Of a stretch of 42,312 nucleotides of DNA, positions 5,930-41,992 are shown piece after piece. The notes beneath the pieces are model-generated. The model ran no database searches, was not told the origin of the DNA, and was given only the letters and a program-made list of their open reading frames with translations. Source of the DNA: a virus; the IMG/VR virus record IMGVR_UViG_3300033145_001018, positions 1-42,312 of that record; one strand, written 5' to 3'. A program made the position numbers and the translations under genes. The stretch's first letter is position 1. Each line of letters starts with the position of its first letter.

Positions 5930-6145
5930 ATGAAAGCATATTGGATGATCGAAGCGAAGACAACAGCACAGTGGCTTACTATCGACAAGGATGGGGAACT
6001 CACATGGGCAGATTCATGGGCTGCGCTAAGATTCGAAAACAAGGAATCGGCTGAGATGGTGTTAGATATTTTCAGGGCTATGAAGATAAAAGATACCTGG
6101 AATGAATTGTCTGATGCAAGAATAACAGACCACATAGATGTATAA
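5930..6145 (+). CDS. Hypothetical head-region protein
   Basis: This 71-residue protein (MKAYWMIEAKTTAQWLTIDKDGELTWADSWAALRF...) has a strong ribosome-binding site (GGTGGAG). It reads like a small alpha/beta domain built around a phenotype-neutral motif such as ARFDSKEEAE in other phage proteins. Its TAA overlaps the next ATG (TAATG), tying it to the MuF-like gene. I do not know a function. Confidence 0.8.
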   Translation: MKAYWMIEAKTTAQWLTIDKDGELTWADSWAALRFENKESAEMVLDIFRAMKIKDTWNELSDARITDHIDV

Positions 6146-7698: not shown

Positions 7699-8987
7699 TG
7701 GACGAAGAAACTAAGAAAAAATTGGATGAGTTGTGTGATATTGTCACAGCGATCCAAGAGAAGAACGACAGGAACGAAAAGAAGTATGACGGTCTTGATG
7801 TTCAGGTAATAAAAGAGCTTGAAATAAAAACAGGCGAAGTCACAAAAGCATTTGACACATTAAATGCCGAACGTGCCGAAGAAAAAAAGCGGATGGATGA
7901 ACTCGAAGCAATCGTTGCCCGTGGTCAGAACGGCGGTGGCGACAAGCCAAAGTCAGACATTGAAACTTATGACGAAAGTATCATGGCATATATCCGTAAT
8001 GGCATCGCAGTGCCGAGGGATGTTGCAAAGAAAGGCATTCAGTCGATGCTCCATATTCCTGGAATGACCGAAGATCAGATCGAGCGAAAGACCATGCAAG
8101 TTGGCATCGATCCTCAGGGTGGATATTGGGTACGTCCGGAAAGACTTGCGAAAGTTGTTGATCGAGAATTTGAAACTTCTCCAATTCGTTCGGTTGCCAG
8201 TGTCATTACAACTTCTGTTAATTCAGTTGAATTGATAATTGATGATGACGAAGCCGAAACCGGTGGATGGACATCTGAAGTTGCACCAAGAACCGCTACT
8301 GGCGAGCCAGATATCGGACAGCTAGAAATCTATACCCATGAGCAGTGGTGTATGCCAAAGATTACCCAAACGCTTTTGGATGATGCTGGATTTGATGTTG
8401 GGGCATGGCTACAACGCAAAGTTAATTCCAAGATCGGAAGAACTGAAAACACTGCATTTGTTGCTGGAAATGGTGCGAACAAACCAAAAGGCTTTTTGTC
8501 ATATGCCAATTATGCGGCGGCCGGAGTATATCAAAGAGATCGCATCGAACAGATTGTGTCTGGGAATGCCACTCAATTTACTGCCGACGGACTGATTGAT
8601 CTTCAGGGCGCGTTGAAAGAAGTTTATCAGGGTGGCGCAACCTGGTTGATGCAGCGTAATTCTTGGGTACAAATAATCAAGCTCAAGGAAACTGCAACCG
8701 GAGCATATTTGATTGATCCAACCATGTTGAGAAATGGTGCTGGTCAATTAGTGCTACTTGGTAAGCCAGTATTGTTTGCTGATGACATGCAAGCAGTTGG
8801 AGCAGGGGCACTGGCAGCAACCTATGGTAACTTCCGAACTGGTTATACCATTGTTGATAAGATGGGCGTTGTTTTGATTCGTGATAATATCACCGACAAA
8901 GGAAGGATCTTGTTTTATACTTCTAAGCGAACTGGTGGTGCTGTTACAAATTACGAAGCACTAAAAACCCAAGAAATTAGCCTATAA
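7698..8987 (+). CDS. Major capsid protein (HK97 fold)
   Basis: This 429-residue protein starts at ATG 7698, with AGGGAG seven bases upstream. Residues 1 to about 85 are a charged coiled coil (delta domain) that works as internal scaffold and would be removed by the protease just upstream. The HK97 core follows, with GGYWVRPERLAKVVDREFETSPIRSVASV, a WTSEVAPRTATGEP loop, MPKITQTLLDDAGFDVGAWLQRKV, and GNGANKPKGFL, all hallmarks of the family. The C-terminus includes RDNITDKGRILFYTSKRTGGAV. Cleavage probably falls near GGGDKPKSDIETYD. Confidence 0.97.
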   Translation: MDEETKKKLDELCDIVTAIQEKNDRNEKKYDGLDVQVIKELEIKTGEVTKAFDTLNAERAEEKKRMDELEAIVARGQNGGGDKPKSDIETYDESIMAYIRNGIAVPRDVAKKGIQSMLHIPGMTEDQIERKTMQVGIDPQGGYWVRPERLAKVVDREFETSPIRSVASVITTSVNSVELIIDDDEAETGGWTSEVAPRTATGEPDIGQLEIYTHEQWCMPKITQTLLDDAGFDVGAWLQRKVNSKIGRTENTAFVAGNGANKPKGFLSYANYAAAGVYQRDRIEQIVSGNATQFTADGLIDLQGALKEVYQGGATWLMQRNSWVQIIKLKETATGAYLIDPTMLRNGAGQLVLLGKPVLFADDMQAVGAGALAATYGNFRTGYTIVDKMGVVLIRDNITDKGRILFYTSKRTGGAVTNYEALKTQEISL

Positions 8988-9022
8988 TTTTTAACCACTC
9001 TTAAGAGAGAAAGGAGTTCAGC

Positions 9023-29726: not shown

Positions 29727-30074
29727 ATGATTAATACACTGAAAGAACTAAGGAAAAAGACTATTGAAAAATATCGTATTGAAAAATCAGTACGTGATAT
29801 CAAAAAAGAAAATACCAAGTTAAGGGAAAAGTGTACCGAAGACAAAGAACATAATGCCCAAGGATTTCGGGAAGGGTGTTTTGAAGAGATATTTAAAGCT
29901 ATGCAGGGTGAGCACTATAATCCCTATTCATTTTTTGATGCATCAGAAGGTGCTGATCTGTGCGAGCATTGTGAAAAGTATATGAAAAATCGTGATGTCT
30001 TAATGGCGAACAGGGAGAAACTAGGGAAAATCAAAAGAGAAATAACTAATTATGCAAAAAAGGAACTGCTATGA
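29727..30074 (+). CDS. Hypothetical coiled-coil protein
   Basis: This 115-residue charged, mainly helical protein (LKELRKKTIEKYRIEKSVRDIKKENTKLREKC) has a CEHCEKYMKN motif at about 92-101 that may bind metal together with other cysteines. It has an ATGGAG site and its stop overlaps the start of the GT2-GT9 gene. No family is recognised. Confidence 0.75.
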   Translation: MINTLKELRKKTIEKYRIEKSVRDIKKENTKLREKCTEDKEHNAQGFREGCFEEIFKAMQGEHYNPYSFFDASEGADLCEHCEKYMKNRDVLMANREKLGKIKREITNYAKKELL

Positions 30075-31774
30075 AAATTGATTTTATTATCCCAACCTAC
30101 GGAATGAAAGGTAATGACCTAACATTGGCATGCGTGAAGACCATCAGAAAGCATATGGGTAATGACAATAAGATAATTATTATTGTTGATGGTAATGACC
30201 ATAATGTTTGTATTGACCTTGACTATAGACTTAGGGAATTTGTAAACACTTTTGGATTTTCAAAAAAAGACGAATGCAATGGATTTGCCAAAACGTGCAA
30301 TCTTGGAATGAGTTATTCGGATGCGGATGTAATGGTTCTGATCAACAACGATGTCCTATTTTTTGAAGATGTTCGGCCAGCGATAATTGAATCATTCAAT
30401 CACGACGATCAAATCGGAATTGTTGGCGCACGGCTTTATTATCCGAATGGAACAATTCAGCACGGCGGAATGGTGCGAGTTGATAAGCATGTTTTCTATC
30501 ATGACGATTGGCACAAAGACTCAGAGTCGGCATATAGTTCCAACTTGAAAAAATATATAATCGGTGTTACGGGTGCATTTTTCTGCATCAGTCGCAATTG
30601 CTATGAATCGATTGGCGAATTATCAACTGAGTATTTCAATGGATTCGAGGATACCGAATATTGTCTGAGAGCTTGGTCGAAAAATTTCGAAGTATTTTAC
30701 AATCCAGATATCAGAGCGATGCACATCGAGGGTGCTACCCGTGGAAAAAACGACATAGAAAAGCAATCGATTGATCCTGGAAATTTCAAAAAAGAAAAAG
30801 AAAGTGAACGAAAGTTCATTAAATATTTTGAGAGCGTAGATATTCACGAAATCGAAAGAACGATTGATTCCCTAAACGCCCCATTCAAATCGAAATGGAT
30901 GGAATATTACAACGAAGAGGGCATCGATCTTGGTATCCGTCGATCTGGTGCGATAGGTGATTGCGTTCTTGTTACTGGAATAATAGACTACATCGCGAAA
31001 AATTATCCATATATCGAGATCCATGTTTTAACCGGATGTCCTAAAGTATTTAAGGGGAATCCGAATATAAGACGCGTCACAAGTGATCCGGTAACATTTC
31101 GATGTGATGTTTTGATTGATCTCGACATGGAATATGAAAAATACCCCAACGTGAGCATTGCGGAATCATATTTCAACAAAATTTTTGGATCTAAAACAAA
31201 CACGCTTCCTATCCTTTATTCGGATGAACTTGTAAATTATCCGATCATTCCCAATGATGGTGAGAAAATATTTGCACTTCACATGGCAGTTAGCTGGCCG
31301 TCCAGAACTTTGAATATCGGGCGATGGAATGAAGTGATTAAGCATATATTGTCATTGGGTCATCAGATTTTAATTCTTGGAACTGATAACGATATGGGAT
31401 CAATGATTGATGATGATCAAATTAAAGACCTCAGAGGACAGACAACAATCATGGAATGCCATCAATTGATCAAACATTCCGATTGCTTCATTTCAACAGA
31501 CTCATCTTTGTTTCATGTAGCATCGGCAACGGACACGCCTATCATTGAAATTTTTAGCTGCGTATCACCTCATACCAGGATATCGAGAACCATAAATGTG
31601 AAAGCTGTCGTTCCCCCTGAAAATGTATGCCGATATAAATTAAGTGAAGAAAAAGAGGTTGTGACTTATCACGAATGTCAATTCGACGATGAGAGGCAAT
31701 TTGAATGCATTAAATCAATAACGGCTGAAAGTATAATCAAGCCCATTAACTATTTATTGGAGAATGAATTATGA
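30071..31774 (+). CDS. Bifunctional glycosyltransferase: GT2 plus GT9-like domain
   Basis: Of this 567-residue protein, residues 1 to about 260 are a GT2 domain: IDFIIPTYG, IIIIVDGND, DADVMVLINNDVLFF (the D-x-D equivalent), then a GAFFCISRNCYESIG and FNGFEDTEYCLRAW segment as in rhamnosyltransferase-type enzymes. Residues about 285-567 are heptosyltransferase-like (GT9): LGIRRSGAIGDCVLVTG, AVSWPSRTL, DLRGQTTIMECHQLIKHSDCFISTDSSLFHVASATDTPIIEIF. Two sugar transfers in one chain are expected, in the host cytoplasm. It overlaps genes at both ends and opens the glycan cluster. Confidence 0.9.
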   Translation: MKIDFIIPTYGMKGNDLTLACVKTIRKHMGNDNKIIIIVDGNDHNVCIDLDYRLREFVNTFGFSKKDECNGFAKTCNLGMSYSDADVMVLINNDVLFFEDVRPAIIESFNHDDQIGIVGARLYYPNGTIQHGGMVRVDKHVFYHDDWHKDSESAYSSNLKKYIIGVTGAFFCISRNCYESIGELSTEYFNGFEDTEYCLRAWSKNFEVFYNPDIRAMHIEGATRGKNDIEKQSIDPGNFKKEKESERKFIKYFESVDIHEIERTIDSLNAPFKSKWMEYYNEEGIDLGIRRSGAIGDCVLVTGIIDYIAKNYPYIEIHVLTGCPKVFKGNPNIRRVTSDPVTFRCDVLIDLDMEYEKYPNVSIAESYFNKIFGSKTNTLPILYSDELVNYPIIPNDGEKIFALHMAVSWPSRTLNIGRWNEVIKHILSLGHQILILGTDNDMGSMIDDDQIKDLRGQTTIMECHQLIKHSDCFISTDSSLFHVASATDTPIIEIFSCVSPHTRISRTINVKAVVPPENVCRYKLSEEKEVVTYHECQFDDERQFECIKSITAESIIKPINYLLENEL

Positions 31775-32778
31775 AAATATTATGTGTTTACCCCGACATG
31801 ATGGACGCGACAAGCTGGTATCGAGGTGCCGGTGTAATGGGAAGCTTGCATAAGCAAGGCGATGTCGATTGCATTGCTACTCAAGCAGTACACTGGACAG
31901 TGCTGAAGGGAATTGACGTCCTTTTTATGCAGCGACCATTTCTTGATGTGCATATTGAATGCATTAAGATAGCAAAAAATTTGAACATTCCGGTTTGGAT
32001 TGATTACGATGATCTGGTGACTGATATACCAAAGGGAAATCCCTTTTTAAAAGCGATCAAGCATCAATACAACATGACGAAAGATCACCTAAATAAAAAT
32101 ATAATCAAATGCTTGAATCTTTCGGATGCAGTAACGGTATCCACAAATGCACTTAGAGAAGCATTCAGGGAATATTCAAATCATATCGTAGTTGTCCATA
32201 ATGCCCACGATGATTATATGTTTCCGGCAGAGAGAAGATATCAAGGCGACCCTGACAATGTAATTCTTTGGCGTGGAAGCCAATCACACAAGAACGACCT
32301 GATTGATTATGAGCGTGAAATTAGAACATTGATATCAAAGCATAAAGATCATCGATTTTATTTCATGGGTTATAACCCAAAGATAATTACCAACAGGCAT
32401 TCAAATGCGACATACATCGAGCCGACTGATGTCTATCATTACTTCATGAAACTCAAAGAGCTAAGGCCCAAGGTTATTATTACTCCATTGAAAGATAATC
32501 CTTTCAACAGAGCAAAATCAAACATAGCAGCACTTGAAGCATCGTATTTTGGAGCTGTATGCATATCGCCCGAATTTCCAGAATGGAAATCTGTATCTAC
32601 GACATGTAAGAAGTCCGATTTTACTGAGATGGCATCACTTCTAATTGAAGATGAGGAAAAGCGAAAACTGTGTCGTGAATCATGTTGGGGTGAAATTGCA
32701 GAAATGCATTTATTGTCAGCAGAGAATTATCGTCGATATGAAATGTTAACAAAGATGAAAGGGGGAATCAATGTCTGA
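31771..32778 (+). CDS. Glycosyltransferase (GT-B, GT4-like)
   Basis: This 335-residue protein has an N-terminal Rossmann half (KILCVYPDMMDATSWYRG, DVLFMQRPF, NIPVWIDYDDLV, DAVTVSTNALREAF, VVVHNAHDDYMF) and a C-terminal half (ILWRGSQSHKNDLIDYE, HRFYFMGYNP, FNRAKSNIAALEASYFGAVCISPEF). The last segment matches the E-x-gA-x-g-.P-v nucleotide-sugar part of GT4-type enzymes encoded by other phages. ATGA overlaps link it to the GT2-GT9 gene and to the methyltransferase downstream. Confidence 0.85.
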   Translation: MKILCVYPDMMDATSWYRGAGVMGSLHKQGDVDCIATQAVHWTVLKGIDVLFMQRPFLDVHIECIKIAKNLNIPVWIDYDDLVTDIPKGNPFLKAIKHQYNMTKDHLNKNIIKCLNLSDAVTVSTNALREAFREYSNHIVVVHNAHDDYMFPAERRYQGDPDNVILWRGSQSHKNDLIDYEREIRTLISKHKDHRFYFMGYNPKIITNRHSNATYIEPTDVYHYFMKLKELRPKVIITPLKDNPFNRAKSNIAALEASYFGAVCISPEFPEWKSVSTTCKKSDFTEMASLLIEDEEKRKLCRESCWGEIAEMHLLSAENYRRYEMLTKMKGGINV

Positions 32779-33253
32779 ATCTGCAAAAATTTATCCATTA
32801 ATCAAAAAATATCTACATGGCAGAATCGTCGATATCGGATGCGGCGATCAAAAAATAGTGCCACAAGCGATTGGCGTTGATATTAGAAAAACCGATCCAA
32901 TTGATATCTTGATGGATTCAATTGATCGCGTTTATGATCTATATTCCATTGGAACATTGAGACATGCCGACATCGTGTTTGCTTCACATTTCCTTGAACA
33001 CATACTAAGTCCCGAAAAGTTCATTAACGAGTGTCATTTGATCCTGGCAGAGTCAGGAAAGTTAATCTTATATTTGCCATCTGCACAGCATTATGATAAT
33101 CGCAGCAATCCAGAACATTTTCATAGTTTCGAATATGAGGTTTTCATGAGGTGGTTCCATGAATTGTATAAAGACATGTTTGAAATTATCGAGCATGGTC
33201 CACATTATGGGGATGGGTGCTATAGCTTTTATATTGTTGCCATGAAGAAATGA
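32771..33253 (+). CDS. Class I SAM-dependent methyltransferase
   Basis: This 160-residue protein has motif I at 19-26 (IVDIGCGD), motif II AIGVDIRK, and a motif IV-V part DIVFASHFLEHILSPEKFINECHLILAESGKLILYLPS. This matches the small Methyltransf_11-like enzymes found next to glycosyltransferases, which usually methylate sugars. It overlaps the previous gene by eight bases. Confidence 0.85.
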   Translation: MSESAKIYPLIKKYLHGRIVDIGCGDQKIVPQAIGVDIRKTDPIDILMDSIDRVYDLYSIGTLRHADIVFASHFLEHILSPEKFINECHLILAESGKLILYLPSAQHYDNRSNPEHFHSFEYEVFMRWFHELYKDMFEIIEHGPHYGDGCYSFYIVAMKK

Positions 33254-33282
33254 TCATTAACAATAGGTTAAGGGGATGAGAG

Positions 33283-33849
33283 ATGAAAAGCGAGATAATA
33301 GAATTTCACAAATGCGGTGCGTGTGGGATAGTCCACAGAGACAAAGAGAGAGCCGACGATTGTTGTATCTGTATCTATTGCGGCAAACCCAAGGGTCACA
33401 CGATGGGCAACGCTGACTGTGAAGATTGCAGAATGAAGATGTGGGCAAAACGTGACCACGAAAGAATGGAAAAAAGGGAGCTTGTTGAATACGACGGAAC
33501 TCAAGTATTGAACAACGACAGCGATGGTTATTATTTCGATGATGACGACGTGTATTGCTATCTTGAAGATTTGGAGCTTGATGAGATGCCAGAGTTTCTT
33601 ATTGTCTGCACTTCGATGGCGGTAGATATCGACCCTGACGGAATACTTGAGAACGAGATGGAAAGTCATTATGAGGACGCCACTGACCACTTAGTAGACA
33701 TTGATGGGTTTAGAAAGTACATCAATGAATGGTGCAAGAAGCAAACACTTCAGTCATGGATAGGCGGGGGCAAAAAAGTAAGCGTTGCCCAGATTAGGAA
33801 ATTTCTAAAGATGGATGAGCCTACAAATAGAACAAAGAGTAGTAAATGA
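33283..33849 (+). CDS. Hypothetical protein with an N-terminal zinc-finger part
   Basis: This 188-residue protein has three CxxC-type pairs in the first 50 residues: CGAC, CCICIYCGK and CEDC. A histidine-rich basic helix follows (KRDHERMEKREL). The middle is very acidic (YFDDDDVYCYLEDLELDEMPE) and the end is basic with a possible helix-turn-helix (VSVAQIRKFLKMDEP). It looks like a DNA- or protein-binding adaptor. Its stop overlaps the HNH gene. Confidence 0.65.
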   Translation: MKSEIIEFHKCGACGIVHRDKERADDCCICIYCGKPKGHTMGNADCEDCRMKMWAKRDHERMEKRELVEYDGTQVLNNDSDGYYFDDDDVYCYLEDLELDEMPEFLIVCTSMAVDIDPDGILENEMESHYEDATDHLVDIDGFRKYINEWCKKQTLQSWIGGGKKVSVAQIRKFLKMDEPTNRTKSSK

Positions 33850-34373
33850 CATGGAAACCAGTGGAAGGATTTGAGGGACTTTACAAAATCAATCGAGATG
33901 GAACGATAATATCTCTGCCTCGGCATGGAACGAAAGGTGGCCCAATGAAATGGCAGAAGGACGGTCGTGGCTATTGGAATATCAAACTTTTTAAAAACGG
34001 ACGTGGGTATAATCTAAAAATCCATCGACTGAAAATGATCCATTTTTCAAAGAGGCCAGACAATTACAAAGACCTGGAAATAAATCATAAAAATGGAATA
34101 AAGACAGATCTCGATTATGATAATATGGAATGGGCGACACATGGACAGAACCTAAGACATGCATTCACTACGGGGTTAAGAGTGTTGCCCTTTGGTGAAA
34201 ATAACCATAATTCGAAATTAACAGACGAAAAAGTAATTGAAATATTAAGAGAGGTTCGAACGGGGTTAAAATCAGGAAGGCAAATTGCAAGAGAATTTGG
34301 ATTTGCTCAACACACAATACAAAGGATTGCTGCCGGAACAGGATGGAAGCATATAGATAGATCAAAAATATAG
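33846..34373 (+). CDS. HNH homing-type endonuclease (NUMOD4-HNH)
   Basis: This 175-residue protein has the NUMOD4 opening (WKPVEGFEGLYKINRDGTIISLP), an HNH core (IHRLKMIHF, LEINHKNGIKTDLDYDNMEWAT) and a C-terminal repeat plus helix-turn-helix (ENNHNSKLTDEKVIEILREV, SGRQIAREFGFAQHTIQRIAAG). Free-standing HNH enzymes spread by cutting alleles that lack them. It sits inside the glycan cluster and may have arrived with, or moved next to, its neighbours. Confidence 0.92.
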   Translation: MTWKPVEGFEGLYKINRDGTIISLPRHGTKGGPMKWQKDGRGYWNIKLFKNGRGYNLKIHRLKMIHFSKRPDNYKDLEINHKNGIKTDLDYDNMEWATHGQNLRHAFTTGLRVLPFGENNHNSKLTDEKVIEILREVRTGLKSGRQIAREFGFAQHTIQRIAAGTGWKHIDRSKI

Positions 34374-34380
34374 GAGCGTT

Positions 34381-34989
34381 ATGACACTATTAATCACGGG
34401 ACTACCAAGATCTGGAACATCGTTTTTGTTACAAATGATGAATGAAGAATGGAACAATTTCAATCCGAAAATATACACCAATTATCATCTAATCGAACCA
34501 GATGCGGATCTACTCTTTAACCTGAATGAGCCGCAAATATTATCACAGGCATTAAGACATGGAGATCACGCAACGCCGATCATGGATAAAATTAAAGAGC
34601 ATTATTCAGATTGTGAAGGCGAATTATTGTTGAAGTTGCCGCAGATGATAGCATGCAGCGCGGATACTCTGGAAATGAATTTCGAAAAGATAATCATTTG
34701 TTTTCGTCAAAGGGAAGGATGGGAGAAATCCGCTATTGAACATGGCATCGAGGGATATCTTGACGAGCGGCCAGAATGGTTGCCCGATCACGTTAAGACG
34801 GTTGCTGAGATATATAGTTATTTCTGGGCGCGTTGTCATTATATGATGCAAAGACTTTCTAGGATCACGGTCAAATATAATTTTTGTGATGATCAATCGC
34901 TTGATAGCGTTATGAAGTTTTTGGGGTATAATCGTGAAGGCGTGAAGCACTCAGATTTTGAATATTGGAGAGGGTCAAGACATGAATAG
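34381..34989 (+). CDS. Sulfotransferase family protein (PAPS-dependent)
   Basis: This 202-residue protein has the 5'-phosphosulfate loop at 7-14 (GLPRSGTS), the strongest mark of the family. A downstream segment KIIICFRQREGWEKSAIEHG places R109 and S117 where 3'-phosphate-binding Arg and Ser are expected. It would move sulfate from PAPS to a sugar or other hydroxyl. The APS kinase at 36383 makes that donor, so the two probably work together. It has an AGGAG site and 7-bp spacing from the HNH gene. Confidence 0.85.
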   Translation: MTLLITGLPRSGTSFLLQMMNEEWNNFNPKIYTNYHLIEPDADLLFNLNEPQILSQALRHGDHATPIMDKIKEHYSDCEGELLLKLPQMIACSADTLEMNFEKIIICFRQREGWEKSAIEHGIEGYLDERPEWLPDHVKTVAEIYSYFWARCHYMMQRLSRITVKYNFCDDQSLDSVMKFLGYNREGVKHSDFEYWRGSRHE

Positions 34990-35028
34990 CGCGTACGCGC
35001 ATTAACAAGATATTATGAGAGGTAAAAA

Positions 35029-35184
35029 ATGAAAGTAGAAGAATTAGTCAAAGAACTGTCAAAGATGAATCCAAATTCAGAGGTTATAATCCAGCATGAT
35101 GAACATGGTTGGCATGGCACCGATGAAGTCAGGGAAGTAAAAGACGGCAAGGAAGTCATGGTAAGTATCAACTGGCACGAATAA
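35029..35184 (+). CDS. Small acidic hypothetical protein
   Basis: This 51-residue protein (MKVEELVKELSKMNPNSEVIIQHDEHGWHGTDEV...) has AGAGGT upstream of ATG 35029. V.ELV..L....n.eV.i....... belongs to a very common small phage type (often DUF4926/YpjP-like 'L...p.d..V.....' proteins) without known function. The 109-bp gap after it (35185-35293) holds a GC-rich stretch with possible short stems and the ATAACAGG start element, but no gene. Confidence 0.65.
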   Translation: MKVEELVKELSKMNPNSEVIIQHDEHGWHGTDEVREVKDGKEVMVSINWHE

Positions 35185-35276
35185 CAATTCTCTGAGCGAT
35201 CAGGGTTTCTATGATAAACGGGGCCGGTTATTAAGTGAGGTTTTATACTGACACCGAAAGCCGGTCTTTGGCCGCA

Positions 35277-35297
35277 TAACAGGATATTATGCAATGA
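35277..35297 (+). promoter_or_regulatory. Translation-start element, second full copy
   Basis: ATAACAGGATATTATG, then C and AATGA, matches the element overlapping the start of the radical SAM gene (2212-2192, minus strand) over 16 consecutive bases plus AATGA. Here AGGA lies nine bases before the ATG at 35294. Confidence 0.4.
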
Positions 35298-35617
35298 ATG
35301 ACAAAACAGATAGCGAAAAAGATATAATATCAGGTAGAAGTTATTGGCGCGGACACTCTATAATTTGGTTAAAAAATGAGCAAAAATGGGTATTCGAAAA
35401 TGATCACTCAGACATTATGGCAAATGGTGGCGAAATTCGTCCATGTGTTAAATGCGGTAAGATTTTCAATGGTTCAAACAAGGGTAAGCCCGATGCCTGT
35501 ATTGGTACTTTACCTGGCGTTGATAATGCTTGTTGTGGTCATGGCATAATTAGCGATGCTTACATCAGGTTTACAAATGGTGTCGTTATTAAAAATTTTA
35601 CAATAGAGGTTTTATGA
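35294..35617 (+). CDS. Conserved phage zinc-binding protein of unknown function
   Basis: This 107-residue protein has CVKCGKIFNG and KPDACIGTLPGVDNACCGHGIISDAYIRFTNG. The P.pClG.LPGV..aCCGHG....Yi.f.nG pattern is one I associate with many phage and prophage proteins of unknown role. The cysteines suggest a zinc site. It overlaps the next gene by ATGA. Confidence 0.75.
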   Translation: MNDKTDSEKDIISGRSYWRGHSIIWLKNEQKWVFENDHSDIMANGGEIRPCVKCGKIFNGSNKGKPDACIGTLPGVDNACCGHGIISDAYIRFTNGVVIKNFTIEVL

Positions 35618-36390
35618 ATGATTTAACGGGCACAGTCTACATTCACAATGCAATCAAATATGATTTCTGTATTGAAGAATCTATCAGGTCGATTGCTCCG
35701 ATTTGCAAGGAAGTCATTTGCCTTGAATGTGATTCGGATGATGGAACTGATCATCTACTGCTAAGTCTCAAGGATGAGATCCCAAATCTTAGAATTATAT
35801 CAACCAAATGGGATATCGGTATCAAGCATGACAGATTAAGGATGCTCTCAGATATCGCACGGGCCGAAGTGAAAACACCATGGCGAATTCATATTCAAGC
35901 CGATGAGGTATTACACGAAAGTTCTTTTGTACCAATAACCATGGCAATCAATCAAGCCAAAGATATTGACGAGGCTTTTACACTCAGACGCATCAATCTT
36001 TTTGGAAACTTCGATAGCTATATCCCAACTACAATGCCAAAGGCTCCATGTGGAACAGAGATAATAAGGATTGCAAGGTCAACGATTGGATCGATGGGAG
36101 ATGATCAGTCATTAAATGCCAGGATGCTAGATACAAGGTTCAGCAATGAGATAATATTTTTTCATTATTCCTATCTCAGAAAACATAGAGAACTTGTGGA
36201 AAAAAGTATCTATATGCAGACATGGTTTTTCAATAATCCCAATGCTGTAGATAACAGGATTTTGGATGCTAAGAAAAATGGATTTGATCCGTATCTATTT
36301 ATACCAAAGGAAAAACTTTCCAAACTTGATATAACCCATCCTGTCGTAGCTCGGGAATGGGTAAAAGAACGAAGGGGATTGTATGTCTAA
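35614..36390 (+). CDS. Glycosyltransferase, GT2-like
   Basis: This 258-residue protein opens TGTVYIHNAIKYDFCIEESIRSIAPICKEVICLECDSDDGTDHLL, the usual GT2 start with S.DgT, and HIQADEVLHE in place of the D-x-D. The rest, EAFTLRRINLFGNFDSYIP and EIIFFHYSYLRKHRELVEKS, resembles the Glyco_tranf_2_4 type. It overlaps the APS kinase gene by eight bases, so sugar transfer and sulfate activation are expressed together. Confidence 0.82.
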   Translation: MNDLTGTVYIHNAIKYDFCIEESIRSIAPICKEVICLECDSDDGTDHLLLSLKDEIPNLRIISTKWDIGIKHDRLRMLSDIARAEVKTPWRIHIQADEVLHESSFVPITMAINQAKDIDEAFTLRRINLFGNFDSYIPTTMPKAPCGTEIIRIARSTIGSMGDDQSLNARMLDTRFSNEIIFFHYSYLRKHRELVEKSIYMQTWFFNNPNAVDNRILDAKKNGFDPYLFIPKEKLSKLDITHPVVAREWVKERRGLYV

Positions 36391-36892
36391 ATGCATTTGG
36401 TTGACCGGCATTAGTGGAGCAGGAAAAACGACAATCGCAAAAGAATTGATGAAACTATTTGAGGTTGCGCATTTGCTCGATGGTGACGAGGTTAGAAATT
36501 CACCGCTAGGGTTCAATGTCGGATTTGATGAAACATCAAGAATGAATCATATATTGAGAATGGGCCAGGTCGCAAAAATACTAGTTGATCATGATGTCGT
36601 TGCGATATGTGCTTTTGTTTCCCCTGATCGAAAACCAAGGGATGTCGTGCGCAGCATGTTCAAGAAGGGTGATTTTATCGAAGTTCATGTCAATGTCAGA
36701 CGTAGCGACGCAATAAAAAGAGATACCAAGGGTCTTTATAAACAATGTATAAAAGGCGAAATTTCAGATCTGGCAGGATTTGATTATGATTTTGAAAATC
36801 CATTGAATAATGAAATAACCGTGGACACTTCCAAGATGACAGTTAAGCAATGCGTAGACAAAATAGTGGCTTATCTAAAAACACTGAGGTAA
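36383..36892 (+). CDS. cysC: Adenylyl-sulfate (APS) kinase
   Basis: This 169-residue protein would catalyse APS + ATP to PAPS + ADP. P-loop GISGAGKTT is at 9-17, LDGDEVRNS (with D35 and R38) is the APS-binding part, and AFVSPDRKPRD, RRSDAIKRDTKGLYKQCIKGEISDLAGFDYDFENP match the lid and substrate segments of CysC. It is slightly shorter than cellular CysC (near 200), lacking the N-terminal arm. No ATP sulfurylase is present, so APS must come from the host. Its partner is probably the sulfotransferase at 34381. Confidence 0.96.
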   Translation: MSKCIWLTGISGAGKTTIAKELMKLFEVAHLLDGDEVRNSPLGFNVGFDETSRMNHILRMGQVAKILVDHDVVAICAFVSPDRKPRDVVRSMFKKGDFIEVHVNVRRSDAIKRDTKGLYKQCIKGEISDLAGFDYDFENPLNNEITVDTSKMTVKQCVDKIVAYLKTLR

Positions 36893-36895
36893 AAA

Positions 36896-37528
36896 ATGAT
36901 TGATCAATACGAAGCTGAAGACATTCATAAATTCTTTTTTGAGGTACTTCCATCTGTTCAGGGTGCAACCGTAGTAAGCCCAGATAGATTGCTCGTTATT
37001 TATAATATAATCAAAAAGATGAATCAATATAAAGACTCTCTGAAGGTGGTAGAGGTTGGAGTATATAAGGGTGGAACCGCTAAGCTGATGTTAATGGCGG
37101 CAAAAGAATTTGGTGATAATTTTGAATTGCTACTCTTTGATACTTTCGATGGACTGCCTTATCATGATAAAAAAGAGGATCTGCATGTGACAGGTCAATT
37201 TGATGACACATCGTTTGAAGCCGTATCGGAATTTCTAGAAGACTTCACCACTCATGAAATATACAAGGGAGTTTTCCCTGCGTCATGCCCAGAAGATGTA
37301 AAAGGCAAGACCTTTGATTTCGTTCACTTAGATGTCGATATGTATCAAGCCTATAAGGAATCCCTTGATTTTTTTCATTCCAGAATGAATACTGGTAGTA
37401 TGATGCTGTTTGATGATTATGCATTTCCATCATGTCCAGGTGCTAAAAAAGCAATCGACGAATTTTATGCTGACAAAAAACAAAGGGTCATCCAATTGGC
37501 AACGAATCAAGCAATAGTCCATTATTGA
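36896..37528 (+). CDS. TylF-type sugar O-methyltransferase
   Basis: This 210-residue protein has motif I at 51-61 (VVEVGVYKGGT), then LLLFDTFDGLPYHDKKED, KGVFPASCPE, FDFVHLDVDMYQAYKESLDFF and MMLFDDYAFPSCPGAKKAIDEF. These are the hallmarks of macrocin O-methyltransferase-like enzymes, including the acidic residues that bind Mg. Members methylate hydroxyls of deoxysugars in glycans and antibiotics. It ends the glycan cluster, four bases after the APS kinase. Confidence 0.92.
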   Translation: MIDQYEAEDIHKFFFEVLPSVQGATVVSPDRLLVIYNIIKKMNQYKDSLKVVEVGVYKGGTAKLMLMAAKEFGDNFELLLFDTFDGLPYHDKKEDLHVTGQFDDTSFEAVSEFLEDFTTHEIYKGVFPASCPEDVKGKTFDFVHLDVDMYQAYKESLDFFHSRMNTGSMMLFDDYAFPSCPGAKKAIDEFYADKKQRVIQLATNQAIVHY

Positions 37529-41011: not shown

Positions 41012-41992
41012 CTAATCAACATCTAGATTGCTACCAGACAGTATAGCATTTCCGCAAGTAATTCTACTGAGATCTTCTTCTTCTGAGGCAATAAAAACCA
41101 ATACATCATAGCCAGCTTTTTTGAGAGCTTCTTCATGCTCTTTGTAGGGATGCATTGTTGTGTAATCACCATGAGTTCTCACATCATTTTTAATGGCTTC
41201 GTGAGTTTTATGCATTGGTGTGAGCTTTATGATGTAATCATCGGGACTAAATCTTGTTAACAGCTTTTCAGGACTTATTTCCCAATCAGCTATTGCAAAA
41301 TTTAAAGTTATCTTTCTACCTTTTGGCTTCGGCAAAGACTTCATTATATTGGCTATTCCAGATAAAGAATATGCTTTGCGATTAAATATATTGTCGCGCT
41401 CTCTTTGATTAGTAGAATTAATGCTCAACTGTAAACCTGCATCGCCAGCCATTACCTCGTTTTTTATATACATCCATTCAAGTAAAAACTTTTGAAGTAT
41501 GGAATTTTTCAATGGCATCATTGTAGATATCACAGGATGAAATCCCCACATGGTTCTTGCAAACTGACCTGCTAGAAAATATGTTGACCTAATCACATCA
41601 AAATTAAACGTCGGTTCACCCATCCTGGCATAGTGCAGATTTAATCTTTCGGTATAAGTCACTTCTTGATGGAGCCACATTGCTATTCTGACTTGGCTTA
41701 TCATATCTTTAAATGATGCATTCTTGCCTCGACCTACTTGTGGAACATCACAAAAGTTACACCCAACAGAACATCCATATTGTGTAGATATAGTGATAAC
41801 CCATTTCTTTTCGAGTGGCAGCATCTGTTGATGCTGTACTTTATCGATATCACCAGTAAGCCCCATTGCATCACATTTTAGATTTACGTCTTTTCCATAA
41901 TCACCAATTGACAGGAATTCTAAATTGCCGTATTCACCATCGGCAACAATGATATTGCCTGTCGGAACGCTTATATTTTTTAATATTTTCAT
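41012..41992 (-). CDS. RlmN/Cfr-like radical SAM protein with altered active site
   Basis: This 326-residue protein follows RlmN in order: STQYGCSVGCNFCDVPQ (C74-x3-C78-x2-C81, the 4Fe-4S site), HYARMGEPTFN (like MGMGEPLLN), LQLSINSTNQRERD (like LHAPNDEIRD), and a C-terminal EEEDLSRITCGNAIL (like GDDIDAACGQLA). C313 lines up with the methyl-carrying Cys355 of E. coli RlmN. The partner Cys118, seven residues before the first cluster Cys, is replaced by T67. The N-terminal RNA-binding domain of RlmN is absent. It may therefore methylate another substrate, or use another resolving residue. It is the last gene of the leftward operon. Confidence 0.85.
   Translation of the reverse strand: MKILKNISVPTGNIIVADGEYGNLEFLSIGDYGKDVNLKCDAMGLTGDIDKVQHQQMLPLEKKWVITISTQYGCSVGCNFCDVPQVGRGKNASFKDMISQVRIAMWLHQEVTYTERLNLHYARMGEPTFNFDVIRSTYFLAGQFARTMWGFHPVISTMMPLKNSILQKFLLEWMYIKNEVMAGDAGLQLSINSTNQRERDNIFNRKAYSLSGIANIMKSLPKPKGRKITLNFAIADWEISPEKLLTRFSPDDYIIKLTPMHKTHEAIKNDVRTHGDYTTMHPYKEHEEALKKAGYDVLVFIASEEEDLSRITCGNAILSGSNLDVD

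Follow-up and report, generated by a model that had tools for sequence, protein, structure and literature searches.

In rhizobia, the NodP/NodQ–NodH/NoeE system combines the supply of PAPS, ATP sulfurylase included, with a sulfotransferase acting on an oligosaccharide. In viruses, sulfotransferases and cysC have been reported separately, the former in OM43 phages and in S-SRM01, where their function was called unclear by the authors (PMC10580990), and the latter as an auxiliary metabolic gene of sulfate assimilation (PMC9789665). Clusters of several glycosyltransferases and O-methyltransferases, regarded as LPS-type, are carried by P-SSM2-type cyanophages and jumbo phages (PMC7824862), glycosylation of mycobacteriophage virions is among the work cited in PMC12619734, and PMC10829341 cites proposals of nucleotide sulfation in phages (Iyer 2013) and of glycosyltransferase- and sulfotransferase-based nucleotide modification (its reference 88). 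Furthermore, the Campylobacter kinase Cj1415, long annotated as CysC, is a CDP-diphosphoramidate kinase (reference 48 of PMC6429109). The locus described here carries both a CysC-type kinase and a putative sulfotransferase within a single run of phage glycan genes.

The window analysed, i.e., the whole of IMG/VR record IMGVR_UViG_3300033145_001018 (42,312 bases, linear), belongs to an uncultured contractile-tailed phage and encodes terminase, portal, protease, major head protein, contractile sheath, tape measure, hub and baseplate as well as Mu-like Gp46/Gp48 proteins. The structural genes are followed by RecE/RecT-like and replication-initiation genes, then by the glycan cassette and finally by small membrane-protein-like ORFs and a weak NlpC/P60-like protein; since it is flanked by these phage genes, the cassette is internal to the phage genome and away from the contig edge, its position being between replication and lysis genes at ~4.5 kb from the tail genes. 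The GC content is even along the record and the codon usage of the glycan genes is the native one of the core genes, with the exception of the ORF at 33283-33849 (z −3.7). No close kin of the whole phage was found in the collections searched; the terminase has its best match in a cyanophage (43%) and the radical SAM protein at 41012-41992 resembles a protein of a Bacteroides phage (52%).

Profile scans of the ORFs (Pfam, NCBIfam and PHROGs) recovered within 30071-37528 all the enzymes named in the initial annotation, the genes of which begin with ATG and for the most part have a good ribosome-binding site. The run comprises, on the + strand throughout, a GT2-GT9 fusion glycosyltransferase (30071-31774, 567 aa; Pfam GT9 45 bits, GT2_3 37.7 bits), a GT4-like glycosyltransferase (31771-32778, 335 aa) that is without a Pfam match, is recognised by the glycosyltransferase profile phrog_7162 (85 bits, 8.7e-24) and has distant matches in 122 phage records, a small SAM methyltransferase (32771-33253, 160 aa; Methyltransf_23 31.8 bits), the candidate sulfotransferase (34381-34989), a GT2-like glycosyltransferase (35614-36390, 258 aa) whose Glyco_tranf_2_4 score of 18.4 bits is below the cut-off, the CysC-type kinase (36383-36892) and a TylF-type O-methyltransferase (36896-37528, 210 aa; PF05711 55.5 bits, cut-off 23), the PDB matches of which are O-methyltransferases including NovP.

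These genes had been described as mostly overlapping. Overlaps do exist, but they fall into several blocks (30071-33253, 33283-34373 and 35294-36892), and interposed on the same strand are an ORF without assigned function (33283-33849, 188 aa; phrog_11053, of unknown function, 2e-5), an HNH/NUMOD4 homing endonuclease (33846-34373; NUMOD4 and HNH_3 over cut-off, phrog_59 1e-37) that is probably outside the pathway, and a 107-aa ORF with a Zn-ribbon-like CxxC (35294-35617; Zn_ribbon_5 at 13.5 bits only), to which a short ORF at 35029-35184 has to be added. The sulfotransferase gene stands alone, 7 bases 3′ of the endonuclease gene; the CysC gene overlaps the preceding glycosyltransferase gene and the TylF gene starts 3 bases after it. 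The blocks and the gaps indicate that the cassette is a loose gene run with a mobile insertion and not one tight operon. The absence of ATP sulfurylase, also noted initially, is borne out among the record ORFs scanned with Pfam and PHROG profiles, and no sugar-activation or lipid-carrier genes were found in the record.

The 169-aa product of 36383-36892 is strongly supported by its sequence as a CysC-type adenylylsulfate (APS) kinase. The protein is full length and scores 138.8 bits with PF01583 (cut-off 21.1) and 151.1 bits with TIGR00455 (cut-off 138.7), its closest solved structures are APS kinases (PDB E 5e-33) and the motifs by which it had been called a complete CysC are in place (P-loop 9-17, DGDEVR 33-38, RDTKGLYK 113-120). 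Apart from two pocket residues discussed below, the catalytic and APS-contact positions are retained (R38, R53, R59, R86, R113, K116 and Y119), as are all conserved arginines and the RDxKGLY lid.

The 202-aa product of 34381-34989 is probably a compact, very divergent PAPS-type sulfotransferase, weak by profile: the Sulfotransfer_3 match (20.3 bits) is below the cut-off of 27 and concerns only residues 4-61, i.e., the N-terminal 58 residues. The GLPRSGTS motif on which the initial assignment was based is found at 7-14 near the N-terminus, where by sequence it corresponds to the 5′-phosphosulfate loop (5′-PSB), and its lack of lysine distinguishes it from a kinase P-loop. To this motif a second PAPS-binding block can now be added, since residues 84-117, from LKLP (84-87) to R109-x7-S117 (LKLP ... 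KIIICFRQREGWEKS), match that of the sulfotransferase family with canonical spacing, a comparable block being LKCPDHV ... ARIVFLHRDPLKVLPS in sulfotransferase L190. The pattern (LKxP, hydrophobic strand, R-x7-S), composed after inspecting family members and hence not a blind test, occurs in one of 2523 other ORFs and in 43 of 200,000 shuffles; it is specific but not sensitive, matching 8 of the 35 sulfotransferases collected. The single-sequence AlphaFold2 prediction has a pLDDT of 36 and the MAFFT alignments of the C-terminal half are unstable. Neither single-sequence nor profile-seeded scans found a close homologue, and no relatives emerged from ~800 bacterial genomes in a scan run without positive control.

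A single-sequence scan with CysC did not find relatives, and a profile scan of IMG/VR yielded at least 119 CysC-encoding viral stretches. Sulfotransfer_3 is over cut-off in 13 of 50 CysC-bearing viral records and in none of 50 control records chosen solely by a DNA polymerase motif (Fisher p = 1e-4), a comparison in which the DNA totals are unequal (4.9 Mb and 3.0 Mb, respectively) and which includes records related to one another and, possibly, bacterial fragments among the IMG/VR entries. In nine of the 13 paired records the sulfotransferase is within 8 kb of CysC, invariably on the same strand (9 versus 0, p = 0.003), and the distance is within 500 bases in four records. The recurrent CysC–sulfotransferase pairing across many unrelated phages is the main new fact to emerge from this analysis. 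On the other hand, TylF is over cut-off in only 2 of the 50 CysC phage records, so that the neighbourhood made of CysC, sulfotransferase and TylF, for which a search had been suggested, is not a conserved unit even if its first two members recur. The PAPS module had also been considered rarely described; in the open-access literature searched, CysC and sulfotransferase were nowhere presented together as a phage module, a silence that does not establish novelty, whereas in IMG/VR the two genes are frequently paired. Two matches encountered in the searches were set aside, namely “Pseudomonas phage Y4” (H1), rejected as phage evidence as it resembles a bacterial surface-polysaccharide region, and a PDB match to a designed repeat protein, whose E-value is an artefact of repeated weak matches.

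The reading that we prefer, and to which we would assign a probability of about 45%, is that the cassette directs the synthesis of a short glycan, sulfated and O-methylated, whose likeliest acceptor is a phage structural protein, e.g., a fibre. In a step order that we infer, soluble glycosyltransferases would assemble the glycan from host nucleotide sugars, CysC, if specific for APS, would phosphorylate the host-made compound to PAPS, the compact sulfotransferase would use PAPS to sulfate one hydroxyl of a sugar, and a second hydroxyl would be methylated by the TylF-type enzyme; the benefit could be a tuning of adhesion or masking. Speaking against this reading are the weak profile score of the sulfotransferase and its lack of close homologues in the scans, the long branch of CysC, the distance of the cassette from the tail genes and the absence of sugar-activation and lipid-carrier genes noted above. 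That the phage makes PAPS and builds a sulfated, methylated glycan had been proposed initially; a PAPS-supplying and a PAPS-using enzyme are supported by gene assignments, PAPS-site motifs and their recurrent association in phages, but the glycan remains a plausible product.

As to the acceptor, for which a host envelope glycan would be a close second, the only evidence on the target comes from the genes surrounding related phage enzymes. A GT9-like enzyme is present in 17 phage loci of the sulfotransferase/CysC type and in none of 80 control loci. The GT9 domain of the record is related to this enzyme, whose family profile, run against all ORFs of the record, picks the GT2-GT9 protein only (E 5e-9). 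In four loci the trio formed by GT9-like enzyme, sulfotransferase and CysC-type kinase adjoins YadA-repeat or fibre-like genes, the label “fibre-like” denoting repeat patterns judged by eye, without family match. One of these loci (L049) has GT9-like enzyme, sulfotransferase and CysC, in this order, between two fibre-like repeat proteins, and in the other three (L321, L323 and L339) repeat-rich fibre-like proteins and glycosyltransferase-like ORFs are found with GT9-like enzyme, sulfotransferase, kinase and nucleotidyltransferase, followed by large repeat-containing proteins. This arrangement hints that virion proteins are decorated in the phages having the trio near fibre-like genes, and by analogy the target might be the same in the phage studied here. 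The same chemistry could instead be directed to LPS, capsule or teichoic acid of the host, where a cap would alter the receptor and block superinfection. This explanation has been applied to the glycosyltransferase clusters of jumbo phages and cyanophages (PMC7824862) and is consistent with GT9 and GT2 being typical of LPS enzymes and with the CysC–sulfotransferase pairs of Helicobacter (L134) and Paenibacillus (L188); it is nonetheless somewhat less likely than the preferred reading, given that scans of the record recognised no flippase, polymerase, lipid-carrier enzyme or membrane enzyme of the GtrA/B type and that the related phage trios adjoin fibre-like genes.

Many phage kinases have an additional neighbour. 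A small HxGH nucleotidyltransferase gene lies near the CysC-type kinase gene, mostly abutting it, in 28 of 84 CysC loci; conversely, loci anchored on the nucleotidyltransferase contain a CysC-type kinase in 75 of 80 cases, usually adjacent, and a sulfotransferase in 23 of 80, CysC being found in 0 of 80 control loci. Kinase and nucleotidyltransferase are spanned by a single profile (phrog_10255), many of the kinases so linked are without the RDxKGLY/FTG lid, and the predicted fold of the nucleotidyltransferase (pLDDT 89) is similar to that of archaeal NMN adenylyltransferase (TM about 0.65). In Bhz60, an isolated Stenotrophomonas phage, a NADAR gene adjoins the kinase-nucleotidyltransferase gene and an annotated sulfotransferase is absent from the 8 kb shown, so that an NAD role competes seriously with the making of APS; this NadM-like enzyme may be donor-making or NAD-related. 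Its gene is absent from the record studied here. A broader proposal, namely that GT9-like enzyme, sulfotransferase and CysC-type kinase constitute a widespread and hitherto undescribed phage sulfation module, of which the present cassette would be one form and which would decorate virion fibres with sulfated glycan, and that in many phages the NadM-like enzyme replaces ATP sulfurylase in making the adenylylated precursor, rendering the module self-sufficient, seems to us unlikely to hold in full.

The CysC homologue could also, like Campylobacter Cj1415, 3′-phosphorylate another nucleotide, in which case the sulfotransferase-like protein would move a different group. Two residues of the APS pocket that hardly vary in the family, an Asn and a Phe, are replaced in CysC by H56 and L130, the alignment of 85 sequences showing N in 80 and F in 73 at the respective positions; these departures, at positions where some other members vary too, make its APS specificity less certain. 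The two substitutions, the long branch (1.63) formed by CysC in a tree of 175 sequences and the aforementioned coupling of many phage kinases to a nucleotidyltransferase all argue in this direction, yet the idea is improbable, since the TIGR00455 score is over cut-off, the paired transferase carries PAPS motifs, the A. pernix APS kinase homologue 2yvu likewise has H at the position of H56, and no phosphoramidate-pathway gene was recognised, the Campylobacter-type partners sought with Pfam and PHROG in the cassette and the remaining ORFs being glutamine kinase, amidotransferase and cytidylyltransferase. Moreover, in the same tree CysC groups, with weak support, with a phage kinase (L037) and the Paenibacillus kinase, both near sulfotransferase genes (Sulfotransfer_1 59 bits and Sulfotransfer_2 43 bits, respectively), a circumstance that favours PAPS supply without proving it.

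CysC might also be an auxiliary gene aiding host sulfate reduction, unconnected to the glycan genes; an assimilatory role is the usual report for viral cysC (PMC9789665). Here this is very improbable, considering that cysH, cysD/N and sat were not recognised, that the CysC gene shares bases with a glycosyltransferase gene and is all but contiguous with TylF, and that it is associated with sulfotransferases in phages. Hypermodification of phage DNA bases, akin to the hiding of phage DNA initially envisaged and to the proposals cited at the outset, is hardly credible, because no thymidylate synthase/hydroxymethylase homologue, TET/JBP or pyrophosphorylase, i.e., no base-modifying or modified-nucleotide-making enzyme, was recognised in the scanned ORFs, TylF and GT9 being, to our knowledge, not DNA-modifying families.

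We know of no established role for phage sulfation. The recurrence of phage sulfotransferases with their own PAPS-making kinase offers a testable pathway, and donor supply for sulfation could account for part of the viral cysC genes at present regarded as assimilatory; if virions bear sulfated sugars, this would have a bearing on phage adhesion, host range and immune recognition. Compared with the rhizobial system, which likewise joins PAPS supply to a sulfotransferase, the cassette has the kinase step only. With the P-SSM2-type clusters it shares the character of a phage multi-glycosyltransferase cluster with O-methyltransferases, but it is without sugar-nucleotide synthesis genes and has both a sulfotransferase and an APS kinase, neither of which is named in the text on those clusters (PMC7824862). 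The OM43 and S-SRM01 genes are similarly of the Sulfotransfer_3 type, whereas the present enzyme is short, very divergent and accompanied by its own APS kinase; the viral cysC auxiliary genes are likewise APS kinase genes in viral contigs, whereas the present one is paired with sulfotransferase and glycan genes. The likeness to Cj1415 lies in a CysC-family kinase within a glycan cluster. The cassette extends the known phage glycan-modification cassettes, and the recurrent CysC–sulfotransferase pairing is new.

Many CysC-type kinases of phages were seen to be immediately adjoined by a gene for a small NadM-like HxGH nucleotidyltransferase, a sulfotransferase being frequently present too; this gene lies at 8542–9012 in the comparison locus L029, at 6001–6465 in L321 and at 6001–6459 in L320, these three and ~75 more loci making up the nucleotidyltransferase set (alignment A11), and a single profile, phrog_10255, spans both nucleotidyltransferase and kinase. 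The phage nucleotidyltransferase could serve in the making of APS-like precursors or have a role in NAD metabolism. The RDxKGLY/FTG lid is absent from short CysC-like kinases of 142–165 amino acids (L321:5546–6004, L366:1780–2229, L388:5550–6008 and others), of which 40 distinct sequences, each adjoining a nucleotidyltransferase, were found; their substrate is probably other than APS.

A candidate phage pathway for a sulfated sialic-acid-like glycan is encoded at L347:921–6935, where genes for a NeuA-like cytidylyltransferase, NeuB, a GT2-like protein, a sulfotransferase, a sugar epimerase-like protein, a nucleotidyltransferase and CysC occur together. On the phage contig L006 (5646–8504), a CTP_transf_3 (NeuA-like) gene and CysC accompany two ORFs having sulfotransferase-like N-termini, one with HIPKTGG and both without a Pfam match, and a terminase-like gene follows downstream. 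The record L002 (OQ572406.1, Pseudomonas phage Y4, flagged UNVERIFIED) has the look of a polysaccharide region from a bacterium, not of a phage: besides CysC it contains several long genes of glycan type and one that is sulfotransferase-like.

Within the glycan cassette of the window an HNH/NUMOD4 homing endonuclease gene is inserted (33846–34373), and a 188-amino acid ORF (33283–33849) of atypical codon usage (z −3.7; GC3 0.48) is perhaps a recent arrival. Radical SAM proteins are encoded on the minus strand close to either end of the record (1365–2231 and 41012–41992), the latter being 52% identical to one from Bacteroides phage Versailles.
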